Origin: Acetobacter farinalis
Lineage (GTDB): Bacteria; Pseudomonadota; Alphaproteobacteria; Acetobacterales; Acetobacteraceae
Length of the DNA: 64,000 nucleotides
Assembly (NCBI RefSeq): GCF_011516935.1
Contig: NZ_WOTF01000001.1
Coordinates: 558,001 to 622,000, forward strand
Reading direction: 5' to 3'
The position numbers and the translations under genes are program-made. Below the pieces are notes generated by a model. The model was given only the letters and a program-made list of their open reading frames with translations. It ran no database searches and was not told the DNA's origin. Every line of letters starts with the position of its first letter. The stretch's first letter is position 1. This document shows positions 47,057 through 55,313 of the stretch, piece after piece.

Positions 47057-47515
47057 TTACTGGTCCAGATTTCCGCCCCCGAAAATATAGTTGCTGACCT
47101 GCTGCTCCAGGCTGGAGGGTTCCAGCGTATGCGTCATCATGGTGCCGGGTGCGACCGTGGTGTGGGATGTCCCGGGCTCGATAACCAGTGCGTTATCGGA
47201 TGAGAGAGTGGTGCTGCCGATTGTCAGCAGGCTGTCTTCAGGCAGTTTGAGGTCTGCATTCAGGCGGAACCGCACGATGGCCATCTGGGAGACCGGGTCC
47301 AGGGTGATGGAGGAAACCCGGCCGACACTCACTCCGGCAAGATTCACATCCGCACCACGGTTCAGGCCGTTGGCAGAGACAAAGCGTGCGGAAAGATCAT
47401 ACCGCTCCAGCCCCGGAGCGGTCTGGGTCGCACGGGCATACAGGGCAAAAGCCAGAGTGCCCGCCAGGACAGCCCCGCTGAAGATACTCGCACCTGCGCG
47501 GCCGCGTCCAATCAT
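47057..47515 (-). CDS. mlaD: MlaD-like MCE domain protein, standing alone
   Basis: The 152-residue protein has one N-terminal membrane segment (about 9-27) and an MCE domain with LSARFVSANGLNRGADVNLAGVSVGRVSSI, the core of MlaD, the periplasmic hexameric part of phospholipid transport complexes. Length matches MlaD. The permease, ATPase and MlaC genes usually beside it are absent here; its neighbours are tRNA-Met and the UppP-like gene. They may be encoded elsewhere. Confidence 0.87.
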   Translation of the reverse strand: MIGRGRAGASIFSGAVLAGTLAFALYARATQTAPGLERYDLSARFVSANGLNRGADVNLAGVSVGRVSSITLDPVSQMAIVRFRLNADLKLPEDSLLTIGSTTLSSDNALVIEPGTSHTTVAPGTMMTHTLEPSSLEQQVSNYIFGGGNLDQ

Positions 47516-47642
47516 GCTCTACATTCTCCGTTTGTGCTTCTGTGGCCGTCTGGCCCGGTTCCATCAATGCTTGCAGCACGTAAGCACATGGTGCAAGGAC
47601 AACCTTCTTTCATCGTGCGGTCAGATCAGGGGTTTGTGACAG

Positions 47643-48491
47643 GTGTCTTTCTTTCAGGCGATGATCATAGCGCTTCTGCAAGGGGCTACAGAGCTTTTTC
47701 CAGTGAGCAGTTTGGGGCATGCCGTGGTCCTGCCGGCGCTCCTGCACTGGTCTTTTGATCAGCATGCGCCAGCCTTCCTGCCTTTTCTGGTCATGCTGCA
47801 TCTTGGCACGTCCATCGCGCTGCTGATTTTTTTCTGGAAAGACTGGTCAGCCCTGTTCCTGGGTGCGCTGGGCGGCGCGGGCCGTCGCGTGCAGAGGGAG
47901 AGCCTGCATATCCTTCTCCTGCTGGTGGTGGCCACCATCCCGGCTGTGGTGATTGGCGGGTTGTTCGAGCATATGCTGCGCAGCCTGTTCGGCTCTGCTC
48001 CGGCGGCGGCTGTCTTTCTGTTCCTGAACGGTTTGATGCTGCTGCTGGCAGAAAGGCTGCGGGGGCTTTCAGGGCGCAAAAATGTGCAGACGGTGGCGGA
48101 TATGACCACCAAGGATGCGCTGGTGATTGGCGTGTTCCAGTGCATTGCCTTTTTCCCCGGCTTTTCCCGTTCGGGAGCAACAATCTGCGGCGGGCTGCTC
48201 CGTGGGTTGCGGCATGATACCGCCGCCCGCTTTTCGTTCCTGATGGCTGAGCCTGTCATTCTCGCGGCAACGGTGCGTGAGGCCTTCAAGCTTCGCTCGG
48301 CCCCGCCGGACCCGGCTCAACTGCATCTGGCGCTGATTGCCGCTGTTGTTGCGGGGTGCACGGCCTTTGTCAGCACGGCTTTCCTGATGCGCTATTTCCG
48401 TGATCATGATAGATGGGCGCTCTCTCCGTTTGCCTATTACTGCATGGCGGCCGGAGCGATCGCGACTATAATTTTTCATTTCTATGCGTAA
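47643..48491 (+). CDS. uppP: Undecaprenyl-diphosphatase (UppP/BacA family)
   Basis: UppP recycles the lipid carrier of peptidoglycan and other envelope polymers. The 282-residue membrane protein has the first family motif QGATELFPVSSLGH (usually QGxTEFLPVSSSGH) near residues 13-26, and the second, PGFSRSGATICGGLLRGL, with the catalytic-type RSG. Seven or eight membrane segments are visible. The GTG start gives the family N-terminus. A strong hairpin follows the gene. Confidence 0.87.
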   Translation: MSFFQAMIIALLQGATELFPVSSLGHAVVLPALLHWSFDQHAPAFLPFLVMLHLGTSIALLIFFWKDWSALFLGALGGAGRRVQRESLHILLLLVVATIPAVVIGGLFEHMLRSLFGSAPAAAVFLFLNGLMLLLAERLRGLSGRKNVQTVADMTTKDALVIGVFQCIAFFPGFSRSGATICGGLLRGLRHDTAARFSFLMAEPVILAATVREAFKLRSAPPDPAQLHLALIAAVVAGCTAFVSTAFLMRYFRDHDRWALSPFAYYCMAAGAIATIIFHFYA

Positions 48492-48540
48492 ACGAAAAGC
48501 CTGACTTATATCAGGCGCTGGTTCATGATGCATTGGCGGG

Positions 48541-48566
48541 CCGGGTCGGACACTCCGGCCCGGTTT
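48541..48566 (+). terminator. Hairpin terminator after uppP
   Basis: A 10-bp stem CCGGGTCGGA / TCCGGCCCGG (one T-G wobble) with a 3-nt loop is followed by TTT. It lies 50 bp after the uppP stop and before the permease gene. Confidence 0.6.
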
Positions 48567-48591
48567 CTGGTTGGAGGTTACACAGGCTCTC

Positions 48592-50124
48592 ATGGGGATT
48601 TCATCCTGCCCGGATACAGGGCGGTCTCGTCGCAAATCACTTGAGAGAATCGAGCGGGAAAACAGCGCTCAACGGCTGAAGAGAACGCTCGGGCCTGTGC
48701 AGCTCACCATGCTGGGGGTGGGCTCCACCATCGGGGCTGGCATTTATGTCATGACGGGTACGGCTGCTGCGAATTATGCAGGGCCTTCCATTCTGCTCTC
48801 ATTTATCGTGGCCGGTCTGGCCTGCCTGTTTACGGCTCTTTCTTATGGTGAGCTGGCGTCCGCCATGCCGGTTTCAGGCTCGGCCTATACCTACGCCTAT
48901 GTGTCCATGGGCGAGGCCTGTGCCTGGGGGGTGGGGTGGCTCCTGCTGCTTGAATACGGCATTTCCTGCGCGGGTGTGGCCGCAGGGTTTTCGGGCTATG
49001 CTGTCAGCCTTCTTCAGGATTTTGGCATACAGGTGCCGCATGCGCTGGCCACTACCACCCTGGAGGTCACGTTCGACAAGGCCGGGCGGCATATCTCCGG
49101 TGCGGGGCAGGTGGATCTGGTAGGCGCCTTTTCCATTCTTGTGGTGACGGGCCTGCTGATTCTGGGCGTCAAGGAATCCCTGCGGATCAATACCGCCATT
49201 GTCTTCCTCAAAGTGGGCGTTCTGGCGGTGTTTGTGGCGTTTGGTATCTGGGAAATTCACCCGGCTTACTGGACACCGTTCATTCCGCCGCATGAAGACG
49301 GGTTCCGCTACGGTATTCCCGGAATTTTCCGCGCGGCGTCCATCATATTTTTTGCCTATGTGGGGTTTGAAGCGGTCTCGACAGCCTCATCTGAAGCACG
49401 AAACCCGCGGCGGGATATTCCGGTAGGCATTATCCTCTCCCTGCTGCTCTGCACGGCCGTATACATGATTGTGGCCGCTGTTCTGATTGGTGTCGTGCCG
49501 TGGAAGCTGCTGGATGTGGCAGACCCTCTGGCTGTGGCCGTGAATGCCATGCATCAGCCATGGCTTGCGTTTTTTGTAAAAATCGGGGCCGTGATCGGCC
49601 TGTGTTCCGTGCTGTTTGGCCTGCTTTACGCGCAAAGCCGCATTTTTTTCGCAATGGCGGAAGATGGCCTGCTCATGCCGCTGTTCAGCAAGCTGCATCC
49701 GCGCTTCAGCACCCCGTGGATAGGGACTATCCTGCTGGGCGTTGTGGTGGCTATCGCGACAGCAACGCTGCCTATTGATGTGATTGGTGATCTGGTGAGC
49801 CTCGGCACGGCCACGGCTTTCGGGATTGTCTGCTTTACCGTGATCTGGGTCCGGAACACGGCGCCGGACTTCCCCCGCACGTTCAGTGTGCCGGGGGGCG
49901 GTTTTACGGTGAAAGGCATCTGGATTGGATATGCCCCTCTGCTGGGCATCCTGTTCTGCCTGATTATGGCTGCACCACTGTTTGTTGATATGATTTTCGC
50001 GCTCTTTTCGGGTGACCCTGTCCCTGCGACGCTGCTTGTTCTCTATAGTCTCTGCGGCTGGGCCAGCTACCGCTTTTACGGGCGGAAACACTCCCGCCTT
50101 GGGCGCGAGCTGGCGGCGGACTGA
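48592..50124 (+). CDS. Amino acid permease (APC superfamily, CAT-like)
   Basis: The protein of about 510 residues has around twelve to thirteen membrane segments. The first carries the substrate-binding GVGSTIGAGIYVMTG motif, and a later segment has FFAYVGFEAVSTASSEARNPRRDIP, characteristic of cationic-amino-acid-type (CAT/YfnA) permeases. The ATG at 48592 is likely; an in-frame TTG at 48571 overlaps a GGAGG sequence that is more plausibly part of the ribosome site. Substrate is not determined. Ends against the convergent ATP-grasp gene with a hairpin between. Confidence 0.87.
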   Translation: MGISSCPDTGRSRRKSLERIERENSAQRLKRTLGPVQLTMLGVGSTIGAGIYVMTGTAAANYAGPSILLSFIVAGLACLFTALSYGELASAMPVSGSAYTYAYVSMGEACAWGVGWLLLLEYGISCAGVAAGFSGYAVSLLQDFGIQVPHALATTTLEVTFDKAGRHISGAGQVDLVGAFSILVVTGLLILGVKESLRINTAIVFLKVGVLAVFVAFGIWEIHPAYWTPFIPPHEDGFRYGIPGIFRAASIIFFAYVGFEAVSTASSEARNPRRDIPVGIILSLLLCTAVYMIVAAVLIGVVPWKLLDVADPLAVAVNAMHQPWLAFFVKIGAVIGLCSVLFGLLYAQSRIFFAMAEDGLLMPLFSKLHPRFSTPWIGTILLGVVVAIATATLPIDVIGDLVSLGTATAFGIVCFTVIWVRNTAPDFPRTFSVPGGGFTVKGIWIGYAPLLGILFCLIMAAPLFVDMIFALFSGDPVPATLLVLYSLCGWASYRFYGRKHSRLGRELAAD

Positions 50125-50131
50125 GGGGTTA

Positions 50132-50156
50132 GCCGGGCTGGCGGATGCAGCCCGGC
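50132..50156. terminator. Bidirectional hairpin between permease and ATP-grasp genes
   Basis: GCCGGGCTG and CAGCCCGGC form a perfect 9-bp stem with a 7-nt loop between the two convergent stop codons. Confidence 0.6.
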
Positions 50157-50174
50157 CTTCAAGTCTTCAGGGCG

Positions 50175-51293
50175 TCAATCGTTCAGGGGGTAGGAGGCCA
50201 GCAGGCGCTTCTGCTGCCGCCACAGGCGCACACCGTGCCATAGCCCGCTGGATTTCCAGCCTTCCTTTTTCTTCTTCGCCCCGATACGGAATGTTTCCCG
50301 GTAATGGTGAAACTGGGCCGCATAGGCTTCACGCAGCGTGGTTCTGGAATCCCAGATATGGGTGGCTTCCGAACCCACGCCGTTGATTTCGATGATCTCG
50401 AAGTTCTCACCCCGTTTCAGGGCGTCAACAGACTCGAATTTCACATCGATCCGGCCAAAATGAAAATCAGGAATATCCTGCATGATCTCGTCCACCCGCG
50501 TGACCAGAGCGGGGGTGATGTCGGCCGCGCCATTATGAAAAATGGCCCCCTTGCAGTGGTTACCGGCAAAAACGAGATCCAGCGTTTCTCCCGCAGCCAG
50601 CACCTCATTCAGGCGGGCGTGCAGGCGGGGGGTGTAAATATGGAGCAGGAGGCTGGTGCGCGGGTCCTGTTTGAGCAGATCCAGCACGGTGGCGTGGCCA
50701 TTGCCGACCAGTGTGGGGATGTCCTTGTAAGTCAGTGAGGAAATTTCGCCACGCGGGCTGTCGGGGTGGCGGATATAGAACAGTCCCGCCTCATGCCTGT
50801 AGGGAATCAGCCGCTGGAGAACCAGCTTGATCTGGCGCGGAAAGGCCGCCAGAGCGGCGCTCAGTTCGGCTTCCGTGCGGGCCAGTTTTACGCCGGTGCC
50901 GTTGCAGCCGATATCGGGTTTGACCACAACGGGCACGCTCAGCCCCTTGGCGGTCATGGCGTCCAGTGCGCGGTGTGTATCGTCCGTGCCGGTTGTCAGG
51001 GTGACGTAGGGCGCAATCCAGCGGGATGCGATGCTGCCTGCCATATCCAGAATGCCGCTCTTGCTCTCACCACACAGGCCACCGGTTTCAATGCGCGGGT
51101 TGGCGGCTGTGGGTGTGCTGAAATCTCCATACCGGATACCCAGAAGAATCCAGTACAGGACAACAGGCGTGTAGAACGCCCAGCCGGGCCAGAATTCAAA
51201 GCTGGAGAGAGGGGAGGCGGGCTTGCCTTTGGCTGCCTCTGAGGGTGTGGAAAGCGCAGCGTGAGCCTGAGAGGGGTTGGGCAGGTAGGTCAT
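50175..51293 (-). CDS. ATP-grasp protein with N-terminal hydrophobic segment
   Basis: The 372-residue protein contains an ATP-grasp fold: VVVKPDIGCNGTGVKLA (glycine-rich phosphate loop, about 121-137), LVLQRLIPY, and the metal-binding end GRIDVKFESVDALKRGENFEIIEINGVGSEATHIWD. The N-terminus has a hydrophobic stretch FWPGWAFYTPVVLYWILLG (about 34-52) that may lie in or on the membrane. It resembles proteins loosely annotated as D-Ala-D-Ala ligase-like, but key differences and the membrane segment argue for another carboxylate-amine or -thiol ligation. Its ATG overlaps the DedA gene stop by 4 bp, so the two are co-translated. Confidence 0.8.
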   Translation of the reverse strand: MTYLPNPSQAHAALSTPSEAAKGKPASPLSSFEFWPGWAFYTPVVLYWILLGIRYGDFSTPTAANPRIETGGLCGESKSGILDMAGSIASRWIAPYVTLTTGTDDTHRALDAMTAKGLSVPVVVKPDIGCNGTGVKLARTEAELSAALAAFPRQIKLVLQRLIPYRHEAGLFYIRHPDSPRGEISSLTYKDIPTLVGNGHATVLDLLKQDPRTSLLLHIYTPRLHARLNEVLAAGETLDLVFAGNHCKGAIFHNGAADITPALVTRVDEIMQDIPDFHFGRIDVKFESVDALKRGENFEIIEINGVGSEATHIWDSRTTLREAYAAQFHHYRETFRIGAKKKKEGWKSSGLWHGVRLWRQQKRLLASYPLND

Positions 51294-51865
51294 TTTCCCT
51301 GTTTCTGAATGTGGGCGGCAACGCGGCCCATAATGATAATGACCAGCACAAAGCCGAAGATGCCGACCCAGCGCCAGGTTCCGAGGTGGGCCAGAAGAAA
51401 TCCGCCAACCCGCAGCGATAGCGCAAACAGGGCAGATGTCCAGATCATGGTGGCCAGGATGGTGGCCAGGGTAAAGGTGCGCAACCCCGCATTGAAAAAA
51501 CCGCAGGCCGTATAGAGCGGCAGGCGTGTGCCCGGCACAAAGCGGCTGATGAAAACAACGCGGAACAGCTTTTCCGTCAGCCACCGGCGTTGCACATCCC
51601 GCTCCGGAGTGTTGATCCATTTGCGGGCCGGTGGCCAGTGGGCCGCAAGGTATCCGAGCCCGTAAAGCCCGACATCACCCGCAACAATTCCGACATAAAG
51701 CGCTATTAAAGCGGTGGACGGAGAGAGTGTATGTAGTTTGACCTGAATAGCGGTAAGAACTGTTGCAGCATCTTCAAGAATAAATGTGGCGATGATGACG
51801 ATGAGAACCTGAACCAACGGGTATGCGGTTGTCACTTCAAGGAAATGGTCCAGAGATCCGGGCAT
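51290..51865 (-). CDS. DedA family (VTT domain) membrane protein
   Basis: The 191-residue protein has four or more membrane segments and the DedA/VTT signature region FRVVFISRFVPGTRLPLYTACGFFNAG (about 100-126), with the conserved Arg and Pro-Gly. DedA proteins are lipid scramblases or flippases; some return undecaprenyl phosphate or phospholipid across the membrane. The overlap with the ATP-grasp gene suggests the pair work on one envelope process. A Glu-Asp pair near residue 31 fits the proton-coupled type. Confidence 0.87.
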   Translation of the reverse strand: MPGSLDHFLEVTTAYPLVQVLIVIIATFILEDAATVLTAIQVKLHTLSPSTALIALYVGIVAGDVGLYGLGYLAAHWPPARKWINTPERDVQRRWLTEKLFRVVFISRFVPGTRLPLYTACGFFNAGLRTFTLATILATMIWTSALFALSLRVGGFLLAHLGTWRWVGIFGFVLVIIIMGRVAAHIQKQGK

Positions 51866-52213
51866 CAGGCAGAAAAATCCACAATTTCAGAGTGCAGGAG
51901 GAGCGTGCTACGGCGCGGTGAAAAAGATAAGGGCGTCAGGTTAAGCCTGCGCCATGCAGGGCGTGAGTCAGAGCATGAGCCGGGGCGCCGACAATGCGCG
52001 TGGCCTAGGGTATGGCGTGCAGCTTTCTTTAATGAACAAGGCGCTAAAACAGGCGCGGCACGGAGGAATGTCAAGCAATACAGCAGGTGTTGCGTTTGTA
52101 CAGATAGCGAAACCTGCAGGATGCTGTATCTGAGAGACAGAAAAGATGCGGGAGGATAAAGTGACATTCTGTCCCGCTGGGTTCATGTGCTTAACAACAG
52201 GAGCTGGTACGGA
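51866..52213. other. Divergent spacer between dedA and mltB
   Basis: This 348-bp region must contain the promoters of both the DedA/ATP-grasp pair (minus) and the mltB operon (plus). No clear -35/-10 pair could be assigned. Near its right end a strong GGAGG site precedes a 19-codon frame, described separately. Confidence 0.4.
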
Positions 52214-52220
52214 ATGCTGA
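52161..52220 (+). CDS. Candidate 19-residue leader peptide before mltB
   Basis: A GTG lies 5 nt behind a strong GGAGG site (52151-52155) and opens the frame MTFCPAGFMCLTTGAGTEC, whose TGA (52218-52220) overlaps the mltB start codon region. The ribosome site is better than that of mltB itself (AGGAG at 10 nt spacing). It could couple translation into mltB. The peptide has no recognised relatives, so it may be incidental. Confidence 0.2.
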   Translation: MTFCPAGFMCLTTGAGTEC

Positions 52221-53218
52221 GAAGAAAGTTTCTTGTCTGTGGCGCGGTGTCTGCCGCGGTGGCGACCCCGGCCTTTGCCAAAAACCGGGGGCATCATGGC
52301 GCATCTGCCGAAGGGGAGCAGGGGAGCTATGCCGTGTTTCTTGCCGGTGTGCGGCGCGAGGCCATCAGCAAGGGGCTTTCGGCATCTCTGGTGGATGAAG
52401 CCCTGGCGCTAACCCCGGAGCCCAACCAGAAGGTTCTGAAGGCGGACAGGCATCAGCCGGAATTCACCCTGACATGGGCGCAGTACAAGGCGCGGGTGAT
52501 TACCGACAAAAAGATTTCAGACGGGCAGGCGGCTGTCAGCCGGCGCGAGGCGCTGTTGGGGCAGGTCAGCCAGCTTTACGGGGTGGATCGTGGCGTGATT
52601 GCCGGGATATGGGGGCTCGAATCCGCATATGGCACCAAGATGGGCACGTACCATGTCATCGATTCGCTCGCGACTCTGGCTTATGACGGCCGCCGCGCCG
52701 CGTTTTTCCGGGCGGAGCTCTTCAAGGCGCTGCATATTCTGGGGCAGGGGGACATAACCCCCGCGGGCATGATGGGGAGCTACGCGGGGGCCATGGGCCA
52801 GCCGCAGTTCATGCCCAGCGCCTATGAGCAGTATGCCGCCAGCTTTCCCGCCGGTGGGCGCCGCGATATCTGGAAAAATGAAGGGGATGTGTTTGCATCC
52901 ATTGGCAACTATCTGGCCAAATGCCACTGGAAAGCGGGCGAACCATGGGGTGAGGCCGTAGATGTTCCCGATTCACTGGATCAGGGGCAGATCGGGCGGA
53001 CTGCGGTGCGTCCTCTTTCCTACTGGGCGGCGCAGGGCGTGCGGCCGCAGGGCGGGGGAGACTTTACCCATATGGATCTGGATGGGGCCATTATCCGGCC
53101 TGATGGCGTTGGGGGGGAAGCCTATATGGTGTACCACAACTTCAATGTGATCCGTCGGTATAACCCCTCCGATTTTTATGCTCTGGGTGTTGGTCTTCTG
53201 GGTAGTGCGGTGGCGTGA
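52214..53218 (+). CDS. mltB: Lytic murein transglycosylase (MltB family)
   Basis: The 334-residue enzyme cleaves peptidoglycan glycan strands to anhydro-muropeptides. A signal peptide of about 22 residues ends in TPAFAK, with an RRKF motif near its start that could also suit the Tat system. The catalytic Glu is in GIWGLESAYGT, and AGAMGQPQFMPSAYEQYA is the family core. The ATG at 52214 gives the signal peptide at the N-terminus; an in-frame GTG 27 bp upstream is less likely. First gene of a long operon; its stop overlaps the rlpA GTG. Confidence 0.92.
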   Translation: MLRRKFLVCGAVSAAVATPAFAKNRGHHGASAEGEQGSYAVFLAGVRREAISKGLSASLVDEALALTPEPNQKVLKADRHQPEFTLTWAQYKARVITDKKISDGQAAVSRREALLGQVSQLYGVDRGVIAGIWGLESAYGTKMGTYHVIDSLATLAYDGRRAAFFRAELFKALHILGQGDITPAGMMGSYAGAMGQPQFMPSAYEQYAASFPAGGRRDIWKNEGDVFASIGNYLAKCHWKAGEPWGEAVDVPDSLDQGQIGRTAVRPLSYWAAQGVRPQGGGDFTHMDLDGAIIRPDGVGGEAYMVYHNFNVIRRYNPSDFYALGVGLLGSAVA

Positions 53219-54084
53219 AAAAAGCCTTTCTTCTTTGTTTTGCCGGTGTGGCGGCCTGTTCCAGACCTCAGCCCGCCGTGCAGCCCGATGTTCATTATGT
53301 GGTGGGTCCGGCCTGGAAGGCCGGGGCAGCCTGGATGTACCCACGGGAAGATTTTTCCTATCAGGCCATGGGGCTCGCCGTGCGGGATGCCCCCTCTGAC
53401 CAGCCGTTGACAACGGATGGAGAGGTGCGCAACCCGCTCTCCATGAGCGGCAGCCACCCCACCTTGCAGCTTCCCGCGGTGGTGAGGGTGACAAACCTTG
53501 AAAATGGTCGGGAAATTACCATCCGCCTGAATGATCGCGGGCCAGCGGAAGCTGGGCGTATGCTGGGCCTTTCACGCAAGGCGGCTGATCTTCTGGGAAT
53601 GGGCGCAGGCCCGGCCCGCGTGCGCGTGGTGGAAGATGAAACCGCAAGCCGCCAGTTGGCGGAAGAGCTGCCCGGTGGCCCGATGCTGCAGATCAGTGCG
53701 GCACCGCTGGAAACTGTGCAGCAGACGGCCCTTGGCCCGGTAACACAGCAGGCGGCGGGCGCGGTGGCTGGTGCGCCTCAGGCGACACCGGCGGACCAGA
53801 CGACATCCCGCCCGGCTGTCCGGCTGCCGGACCTTCCGGTTGCGTGGCGGCAGGGGCCGCCTGTGGAAACCCGGCTCTGGGTGGAAACGGCCGATTTTAC
53901 AGCGCGTGGCCCTGCAGCAAGGCAGGCCGCGCAGGAAGGAGGCACGGTCTGGCCTTCTTTCACACCACAAGGCAAGATGTGGGCTGTCCGACAAGGACCT
54001 TTTACGACTATAAGCGACGCGGATACGGCCCTGAAGCGTGCTCTTGCTGATGGCTTGACCGGATCTCATATCGTCGTCGAATAG
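53215..54084 (+). CDS. rlpA: RlpA-like lipoprotein (septal lytic transglycosylase type)
   Basis: The 289-residue protein has a lipoprotein leader with lipobox VAAC (Cys about residue 15), a double-psi beta-barrel domain (about 28-140) with VVRVTNLENGREITIRLNDRGP containing the catalytic-type Asp, and a C-terminal SPOR-like domain (about 215-288) that would bind denuded glycan at division sites. The first half of the barrel departs from the usual GxASWYG pattern, so activity is less certain. GTG start overlaps the mltB stop. Followed after 8 bp by dacC. Confidence 0.83.
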   Translation: MKKAFLLCFAGVAACSRPQPAVQPDVHYVVGPAWKAGAAWMYPREDFSYQAMGLAVRDAPSDQPLTTDGEVRNPLSMSGSHPTLQLPAVVRVTNLENGREITIRLNDRGPAEAGRMLGLSRKAADLLGMGAGPARVRVVEDETASRQLAEELPGGPMLQISAAPLETVQQTALGPVTQQAAGAVAGAPQATPADQTTSRPAVRLPDLPVAWRQGPPVETRLWVETADFTARGPAARQAAQEGGTVWPSFTPQGKMWAVRQGPFTTISDADTALKRALADGLTGSHIVVE

Positions 54085-54092
54085 GAAAGAAC

Positions 54093-55313
54093 GTGCAAAC
54101 TCGACGGTTTCTTCTCGCAGGGGGCGCTGCCCTCCTCTCAGGCAGCTACTCTCTGACTGCCTTTGCCCGCAAGCCCAAGGGAGCGCACGCTGCCGCGGCT
54201 GCGGCCGCAGGGGCACCTCAGCCTGCTGAGGCGGCTGTCGCGCAGACGCCTGCCACCACGCCTGTTGGTCCGGTGGACACCATGGCGCGCTGGGCCTGCA
54301 TCCTTGATTACAAGAGCGGGGCAACCCTGCTGGAAAAAGCAGCGGATGAGCGGATGCCTCCCTCATCCCTGACCAAGATGATGACAGCCTATGTCACCTT
54401 CAGCATGCTCAAGGCTGGCCGCCTGCGCCTGGATCAGGTGCTGCCTGTCAGTGAGCGCGCCTGGCGGATGCAGGGGTCACGCATGTTCGTGCCTCTTGGG
54501 CAGAGCATTCCGGTGCAGGACCTTATTCAGGGGATGGTGATCCAGTCCGGTAACGATGCCTGCATCGTGCTGGCCGAAGGGATTTCAGGTTCTGAAGAAC
54601 AGTTTGTCGCGCTGATGAATGATATGGCAGGCAAGCTTGGGCTCACCAATTCCCATTTCATGAACGCAACGGGCTGGCCTGCGGAAAATCATTACATGTC
54701 CGCACGCGATGTGGCCTATCTGGCCCTGCGGCTGATTCATGATTTCCCGGAATATTATCACTACTTCTCGGAAAAAGAGTTCTATTTCAACAAGATCCGT
54801 CAGGCGAACCGGAACCTTCTGGTGGTCAAGGGGCTGGCTGACGGCCTGAAGACCGGCCACACCGAGGCCGGGGGCTTCGGGCTCTGCGCCTCTTCTGACC
54901 GTGAAGGACGCCGCGTTATTCTGGCGATCAACGGCCTGCCGACAGATGGCGCGCGTGGGCGCGAAGGTGAGCGGCTTATGGGCTGGGCCTTTGCGAATTT
55001 CGAGTCTGCAAAAATTGTCTCGAAAGGTGATGTGCTTGAACAGGCCCCCGTCTGGATGGGTGTCAGCCAGACTGTCCCGCTTGTTGCTGCGCAGGATTTC
55101 ACAATGATGCTGCCGCATGGCTGGCGGAATTCCACGCACATGTCTCTGGACTATCAGGGGCCGATAGCGGCTCCCGTGCAGCAGGGGCAGGCGGTTGGGC
55201 AACTGACGGTTCTGCTGCCCGGCGGGCGGCAGGCGCAGGTGCCGGTTGTGGCTGGCCAGAGCGTGCCGGAACTCGGGCTGCTGGGGCGTGCGGCCCGCCG
55301 CCTGCATCTCTGA
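54093..55313 (+). CDS. dacC: D-alanyl-D-alanine carboxypeptidase (PBP5/6 family)
   Basis: The 406-residue serine peptidase trims peptidoglycan pentapeptides. Active-site motifs are intact: SxxK at S92-K95 (SLTK), SGN in VIQSGNDACI, and KTG in GLKTGHTEAGG. The N-terminus TRRFLLAGGAALLSGS looks like a twin-arginine signal. A Pro/Ala-rich linker precedes the catalytic domain, and the C-terminal part (from about 310) matches the beta-rich PBP5 C-domain. GTG start. Tmk begins 3 bp after its stop. Confidence 0.93.
   Translation: MQTRRFLLAGGAALLSGSYSLTAFARKPKGAHAAAAAAAGAPQPAEAAVAQTPATTPVGPVDTMARWACILDYKSGATLLEKAADERMPPSSLTKMMTAYVTFSMLKAGRLRLDQVLPVSERAWRMQGSRMFVPLGQSIPVQDLIQGMVIQSGNDACIVLAEGISGSEEQFVALMNDMAGKLGLTNSHFMNATGWPAENHYMSARDVAYLALRLIHDFPEYYHYFSEKEFYFNKIRQANRNLLVVKGLADGLKTGHTEAGGFGLCASSDREGRRVILAINGLPTDGARGREGERLMGWAFANFESAKIVSKGDVLEQAPVWMGVSQTVPLVAAQDFTMMLPHGWRNSTHMSLDYQGPIAAPVQQGQAVGQLTVLLPGGRQAQVPVVAGQSVPELGLLGRAARRLHL

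Follow-up and report, generated by a model that had tools for sequence, protein, structure and literature searches.

A 64,000-nucleotide stretch of the Acetobacter farinalis genome (contig NZ_WOTF01000001.1 of assembly GCF_011516935.1, positions 558,001 to 622,000 of the forward strand; hereafter, the window) encodes on its minus strand a DedA/VTT protein, P0002, and directly behind it an ATP-grasp ligase, P0001 (Table 1). An earlier sequence-only reading of this DNA had proposed that the two genes overlap by 4 bp and are coupled, and that together they modify a lipid-linked or envelope substrate. The overlap is indeed present as an ATGA stop/start, from which translational coupling is inferred, with the DedA gene first and the ATP-grasp gene second. 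P0002 belongs to the DedA family, as its PF09335 score exceeds the cut-off (Table 1), and the nearest named locus, in A. malorum, shares 89% identity over the ligase. Here we characterize the pair and its relatives, and propose that it may modify the head group of ornithine lipids and translocate the product.

Table 1 Features of the DedA/ATP-grasp pair in the window
Feature	Position	Strand	Basis	Proposed role
DedA/VTT gene P0002, 191 aa	51865-51290	minus	PF09335, 47.9 bits (cut-off 33.9)	candidate translocator of the product
ATP-grasp ligase gene P0001, 372 aa	51293-50175	minus	open reading frame, ATG at 51293	candidate ornithine-lipid head-group amidoligase
ATGA stop/start overlap, 4 bases	51290-51293	minus	read from the sequence	
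Aromatic-rich hydrophobic helix, residues 37-55	51129..51185	minus	model helix and hydropathy in 71 rows	possible membrane-surface anchor
Invariant Lys125 codon	50919..50921	minus	71/71 + 9/9 rows	presumed ATP-binding lysine
Invariant Asp283 codon	50445..50447	minus	71/71 + 9/9 rows	presumed metal ligand
Codons 302-304 with invariant Glu302 and Asn304	50382..50390	minus	71/71 + 9/9 rows	presumed metal ligands

P0001 passes no Pfam or NCBIfam cut-off. Its best Pfam match was RimK (19.7 bits versus 21), and CPSase_L_D2, ATP-grasp_3/4 and Dala_Dala_lig_C also stayed below their cut-offs; among the NCBIfam models, it weakly matched cyanophycin synthetase and RimK-type ligases, with 22.7 bits for the cyanophycin synthetase TIGR02068 (cut-off 850). 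A structural model, based on a 71-row alignment drawn from 150 ligase loci at 85% identity, reached a mean predicted local distance difference test score (pLDDT) of 92.3 and a predicted template modelling score of 0.89, with residues 1-20 below a pLDDT of 50. The best fold match was the cyanophycin synthetase 7wae_A (Z 17.0, root-mean-square deviation 4.5, 276 aligned residues, 16% identity); the cyanophycin synthetases were followed by LysX/ArgX, glutathione synthetase, RimK and D-alanine--D-alanine ligase (Ddl), with Z from 15 to 12. A profile search against solved structures agreed, with 8fxh as the best match (E 3.9e-12; its sequence is identical to that of 8fxi, titled CphA2). Residues K125, D283, E302 and N304 were invariant in all 71 rows and in the nine rows left out of the alignment (the short rows L059, L105 and L176, and later L129 and L160-L164), the catalytic residues of which were checked separately. 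By analogy, we take Lys125 to be the ATP-binding lysine, and Asp283, Glu302 and Asn304 to be metal ligands. The modelled fold and these ATP- and metal-type residues place P0001 in the ATP-grasp superfamily.

The hydrophobic N-terminal segment, which the sequence-only reading had regarded as a membrane segment, lies at about residues 33-57 of P0001, where the best 19-residue Kyte-Doolittle mean is 1.23, and corresponds to a model helix at residues 37-55. The usual transmembrane value is 1.6; the segment stayed below it in 67 of the 71 rows and reached it in four (median 1.2). The segment thus exists and is predicted to be a helix, and a transmembrane reading of it was rejected. Trp, Tyr and Phe are abundant in the helix, the interface score of which (-10.3) is strongly favourable, and therefore, judging from the model, it is more likely a membrane-surface helix within the enzyme fold than a span.

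The genome encodes five VTT proteins, P0002 included. Compared with eight unfused partner DedAs that lie outside its class, P0002 scored 57.8-79.8 bits; the scores were 40.5 and 74.0 bits for two fused DedA-ligase proteins, and no higher than 7.2 bits for the four further VTT proteins encoded in the genome. By these scores, the partner is a DedA lineage apart from the four others and dedicated to the ligase; the possibility that any generic DedA serves as the partner was rejected on the scores of the own paralogues. The pairwise distances of ligases and DedAs correlated closely (Mantel correlation 0.931 for 25 taxa, with 0 of 2000 shuffles as high), a value that shared descent alone could yield. 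In a maximum-likelihood tree of 32 DedA rows, the partner rows mostly clustered, and one of the own paralogues, the branch of which is very long, was placed close to the vibrio rows at an unresolved fork; since the deep support is weak, the lineage claim rests on the scores. With the two UptA models, P0002 reached 20.1 bits (cut-off 300) and 19.8 bits (cut-off 250).

Ligase relatives were collected from genome searches and named records. Ligase matches were found in 100 of 249 genomes of the same family, Acetobacteraceae, and in 17 of 299 genomes of the phylum, nine of them full length, including the own genome. A DedA relative lay directly upstream on the same strand in all 38 of the best full-length loci from the two genome searches, one being fused. 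When these were combined with 80 named loci (the best 80 of 441), a same-strand DedA relative adjoined the ligase in 114 of the 118 loci, the one fusion included; these loci are the best-scoring matches, some of them near copies, so that the counts are not independent and do not represent the whole ligase family. A ligase start at the identical -4 overlap is possible in 71 of the 114 DedA-paired loci. Of the remaining four, L105 breaks off where its contig ends, and L154, L157 and L158 come from short metagenome contigs (6 to 9 kb). The pair is therefore neither a chance arrangement nor confined to this species, so that the refuting condition named in the sequence-only reading did not apply, and the fusions that it had suggested looking for in other bacteria exist as well, in at least two genomes: one (L009/L066) carries both domains in a single 576-codon frame, and the other is a gene of Azospirillum sp. 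B510 annotated as a 'VTT domain-containing protein'. In Paracoccus denitrificans, a related DedA lies about 1 kb from the ligase on the opposite strand. Seven stretches of viral contigs matched a pattern, and none of them encoded a relative. Overall, DedA is regular in one large branch of the ligases and optional beyond it. The partnership between DedA and ligase thus holds as a conserved unit among close relatives, but is not constant across the wider ligase family.

Outside Acetobacteraceae, the ligase is genomically linked to an acyltransferase of the OlsF or OlsB type. In 11 of the 15 Vibrio-type loci fetched with flanks (L061-L065, L160, L171, L172, L194, L195 and L198), we found a complete string of genes for DedA, ATP-grasp, DinB_2, NRDE/TANGO2, YHS and OlsF, and two of these loci, L063 and L064, are labelled as belonging to other families. 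The OlsF protein of the string has about 590 residues, with an acyltransferase domain (PF19576/PF01553) joined to PF13444. We take this combination to be the make-up of OlsF, and PF13444 to be the marker of OlsB-type acyltransferases. Among the exceptions in the set, L161 lacks OlsF and L190 has shortened frames, while the order is changed and the ligase-OlsF linkage retained in the other two: L191 (5920-10635, genome G928, Vibrio-type) has ATP-grasp immediately before OlsF, then DinB_2, NRDE and YHS, with no DedA found, and L192 has DedA, ATP-grasp, YHS and OlsF. An OlsF-like gene also lies directly upstream of the fusion at L066. In addition, the gene immediately after the ligase in Variovorax (L164) carries PF13444 (110.6 bits), and a PF13444 gene adjoins the ligase in genome G787, both without DedA, and the link between the ligase and ornithine-lipid genes therefore persists where DedA is absent.

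The linkage was also evident in genome samples, for which all co-occurrence p-values ignore kinship among the genomes. Among 150 genomes of one family, taken to be Vibrionaceae because the match coordinates in G870 and G812 agree with named Photobacterium and Salinivibrio records, 62 carry the ligase (three of them, G815, G872 and G882, with interrupted or shortened frames that were counted as carriers) and 112 carry PF13444, which is present in 61 of the 62 carriers versus 51 of the 88 non-carriers (Fisher p 1.5e-9). At least 55 of the 62 carriers have a PF13444 match at a distance of 270 to 3843 bases from the ligase, always downstream and on the same strand. In a sample of 274 genomes from the Gammaproteobacteria-type class of G066, PF13444 was present in 5/5 carriers versus 110/269 other genomes (p 0.012), and it is linked to the ligase in G066 and G787.

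Several further features of these loci were noted. L190 (4735-6852, in G872) seems to be a decayed copy of the operon: behind its DedA frame, the ATP-grasp and OlsF frames are both shortened, and the former runs into the latter. The Salinivibrio-like genomes G812, G820, G824, G828, G832 and G836, as well as L161, have kept the ligase, with PF13444 elsewhere in the genome; at L161 the ligase stands with DedA, DinB_2 and NRDE. Ten OlsF genes unlinked to the ligase (L182-L189, L193 and L196) had no companion gene in the stretches fetched; DinB_2, NRDE/TANGO2 and YHS thus join OlsF where the DedA/ATP-grasp pair is present, and not at these ten.

One such string can be tied to a studied operon of Vibrio cholerae. 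PMC12186959 shows that VCA0646 is responsible for making ornithine lipid and that low salinity induces it, and calls VCA0649-VCA0646 a putative four-gene operon. Among 227 genomes of the Vibrio-type genus, one contains an exact match to a primer from that paper; this is the genome of L198, where the order is DedA, ATP-grasp, DinB_2, NRDE, YHS and OlsF. Two primers that the paper used for the VCA0649 promoter map to the last part of the ATP-grasp gene and the first part of the DinB_2 gene, and the published promoter fragment corresponds to L198 6561-6869, so that it starts within the ATP-grasp gene, at its 3' end. The pair therefore lies directly upstream of the four-gene operon that ends in VCA0646. 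The words DedA and taurine are absent from the main text of PMC12186959.

Ornithine lipids, which contain no phosphorus, are widespread in membranes and have been connected with tolerance of acid and stress, and taurine transfer is listed among their modifications in a 2025 paper, with no gene named in the portion covered (PMC12493201). The ornithine-taurine lipid cerilipin of Gluconobacter cerinus goes back to Tahara 1976, as cited in the covered parts of PMC4484230, PMC6669457 and PMC12493201. We found that G. cerinus NBRC 3267 carries the DedA/ATP-grasp pair (L129); the pair is also present in many other acetic acid bacteria, so that this species match alone is weak. The literature searched, which excludes most subscription journals, contained no gene for cerilipin synthesis, nothing on tauro-ornithine and nothing joining DedA with ornithine lipid, and it co-mentioned ATP-grasp and ornithine lipid only via a reference list.

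The ATP-grasp type of carboxylate-amine ligase, the dedicated DedA and the linkage to ornithine-lipid genes together make ornithine lipid the simplest substrate. We therefore consider it somewhat more probable than its negation that the pair serves the ornithine-lipid pathway as a module that modifies the head group and translocates the product. The lipid substrate suggested by the sequence-only reading accordingly still seems likely, narrowed to ornithine lipids through the gene linkage outside Acetobacteraceae. In this proposal, the aromatic-rich N-terminal helix would keep the ATP-grasp enzyme on the cytoplasmic side of the membrane, and the enzyme would use ATP to activate ornithine lipid at its free carboxylate, forming an acyl phosphate. 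Coupling of the acyl phosphate to an amine would then yield an amidated ornithine-lipid head group, which the coupled or fused DedA, where present, would move to the other leaflet. Since G. cerinus both has the pair and makes cerilipin, we propose that the amine in acetic acid bacteria is most likely taurine, coupled to the ornithine carboxylate to give cerilipin, and perhaps another amine in vibrios. More tentatively, and at less than even chance, the ATP-grasp protein of acetic acid bacteria and marine vibrios could be the missing synthase for ornithine-taurine lipids of the cerilipin type, or for other ornithine amides; with its dedicated and sometimes fused DedA flippase, it would both produce and translocate a doubly substituted aminolipid. 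Such a ligase-flippase role on ornithine lipids, which would combine a known fold with a known transporter family, was not found described in the literature searched.

Several observations weigh against this proposal. In the own genome, the pair is unlinked to PF13444, the single copy of which lies on another contig; among Acetobacteraceae, PF13444 is present in 98 of 100 ligase carriers versus 141 of 149 non-carriers (p 0.32) and is so nearly universal that the comparison has no power; and the neighbours of the pair in this family are MlaD, UppP and murein genes. Seven of the 62 Vibrionaceae carriers, namely the six Salinivibrio-like genomes and G839, have no linked PF13444 among the matches listed. 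PF13444 is unlinked in three of the five carriers of the class sample (G566, G649 and G679), that sample is centred on G066, itself a carrier, and the neglect of kinship bears on every co-occurrence p-value. No PF13444 gene was found near the Azospirillum fusion. As for DedA, the selection of the 118 loci by score tempers the near-constant pairing, and the partner-DedA profile found no match near 13 second copies of the ligase in Acetobacteraceae (L049-L060 and L067; two of these share 45% and 48% identity with the window ligase), nor near L154, L157, L158, L164 (Variovorax) and L173-L176, nor near the Komagataeibacter plasmid copy L165 and the Vibrio-type L191. In the model of the fusion, the DedA half is mostly under pLDDT 60, so that no interface can be read. 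Finally, a legend in PMC12186959 assigns the ornithine label to the origin and to ornithine lipid, and names no modified form of the lipid; conceivably, a product of high polarity would not leave the origin.

The gene linkage fits equally well if ornithine lipid serves as the amine, with the ligase adding an amino acid to its free delta-amino group and DedA moving the product. The relatives that appear in the fold and profile matches include cyanophycin synthetase and RimK, enzymes that join amino acids to existing chains. On chemical reasoning, however, the ornithine-taurine lipid cerilipin, made by a carrier species, requires ornithine to supply the carboxylate, because taurine has none, and we regard the amine role as improbable. 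A substrate outside the ornithine lipids is suggested by the surroundings of the pair in Acetobacteraceae, where it might act on undecaprenyl phosphate or on a peptidoglycan or glycan intermediate, the ornithine-lipid link of Vibrionaceae being secondary. Among the 63 of the 80 named, Acetobacteraceae-type loci that have full flanks, UppP and MlaD were each found within 8 kb of the pair in 61, and SLT2 and D-Ala-D-Ala carboxypeptidase each within 10 kb in 57; moreover, some DedA proteins transport undecaprenyl phosphate, and P0002 does show its weak UptA match (20.1 bits versus 300). None of MlaD, UppP, SLT2 and D-Ala-D-Ala carboxypeptidase was present in the 11 Vibrio-type loci, the flanks of which are mostly shorter, and two of the 63 loci (L156 and L159) keep the pair without such neighbours, so that the arrangement may be inherited synteny; the MlaD neighbour also fits lipid export. 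We consider this explanation unlikely.

Alternatively, the ligase might make a small soluble amide or peptide, with DedA as an unspecific partner for ion or lipid homeostasis and the lipid genes merely co-regulated. The presence of DinB_2, NRDE/TANGO2 and YHS, whose roles are unknown, in the same gene string would be in line with this, as would the many distant ligase relatives without an adjoining DedA, but the fusions, the regular pairing among close relatives, the lineage-specific DedA and the persistence of the lipid-synthase linkage through gene reordering all argue against it, and we give a soluble product little credence. The D-alanine--D-alanine ligase label, which the sequence-only reading had found inadequate, is used in one Salinivibrio and one Komagataeibacter record, and Ddl structures do match the P0001 model with Z of about 12-13. 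P0001 nevertheless scores 13.1 bits on TIGR01205 against a cut-off of 245.65, cyanophycin synthetase matches it better, and the genome encodes a separate, genuine Ddl of 269.3 bits. On these profile scores, Ddl as a family assignment for P0001 is already refuted, and an ordinary Ddl function is almost certainly wrong.

Two observations concern the surroundings of individual ligase copies. The window pair sits in a block (47057-55313) common to acetic acid bacteria, made up of MlaD, UppP, a permease, ATP-grasp/DedA, an SLT2 transglycosylase and a D-Ala-D-Ala carboxypeptidase. The copy at L165, carried by a conjugative plasmid of Komagataeibacter, has a methyltransferase and a UPF0014/ABC pair as its neighbours.

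If the proposed role is correct, the pair would provide a candidate enzyme for the second coupling of an amide-extended ornithine lipid known since 1976, a matching flippase and natural fusions of the two. DedA proteins would gain a defined non-phospholipid cargo, and it would seem that vibrios make modified ornithine lipids beyond those described in the papers covered.

Compared with known systems, the ATP-grasp parts of CphA1 and CphA2 are the top fold and profile matches of P0001, but the identity is low, the score lies far under the cut-off and another substrate is expected for P0001. P0002 resembles the UptA-type DedA/VTT lipid transporters in its PF09335 domain, whereas it falls far short of the UptA cut-offs and its lineage appears tied to the ligase. 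If the ligase joins taurine and ornithine lipid in a carrier such as G. cerinus, cerilipin would be the expected product; cerilipin is a lipid and not a gene, and the covered parts of PMC4484230, PMC6669457 and PMC12493201 name no gene for its synthesis. The synthase gene for OlsF/VCA0646 shares a string with the pair at L198, but OlsF builds the lipid with two acyltransferase domains, and the ATP-grasp and DedA genes lie outside the operon as named in the covered part of PMC12186959. The known ornithine-lipid modifiers, as described in the covered part of PMC12493201 (hydroxylation and the N-methyltransferase OlsG), act on preformed ornithine lipid, as proposed for the ligase; they hydroxylate or methylate their substrate, whereas the ligase would form an amide with ATP.

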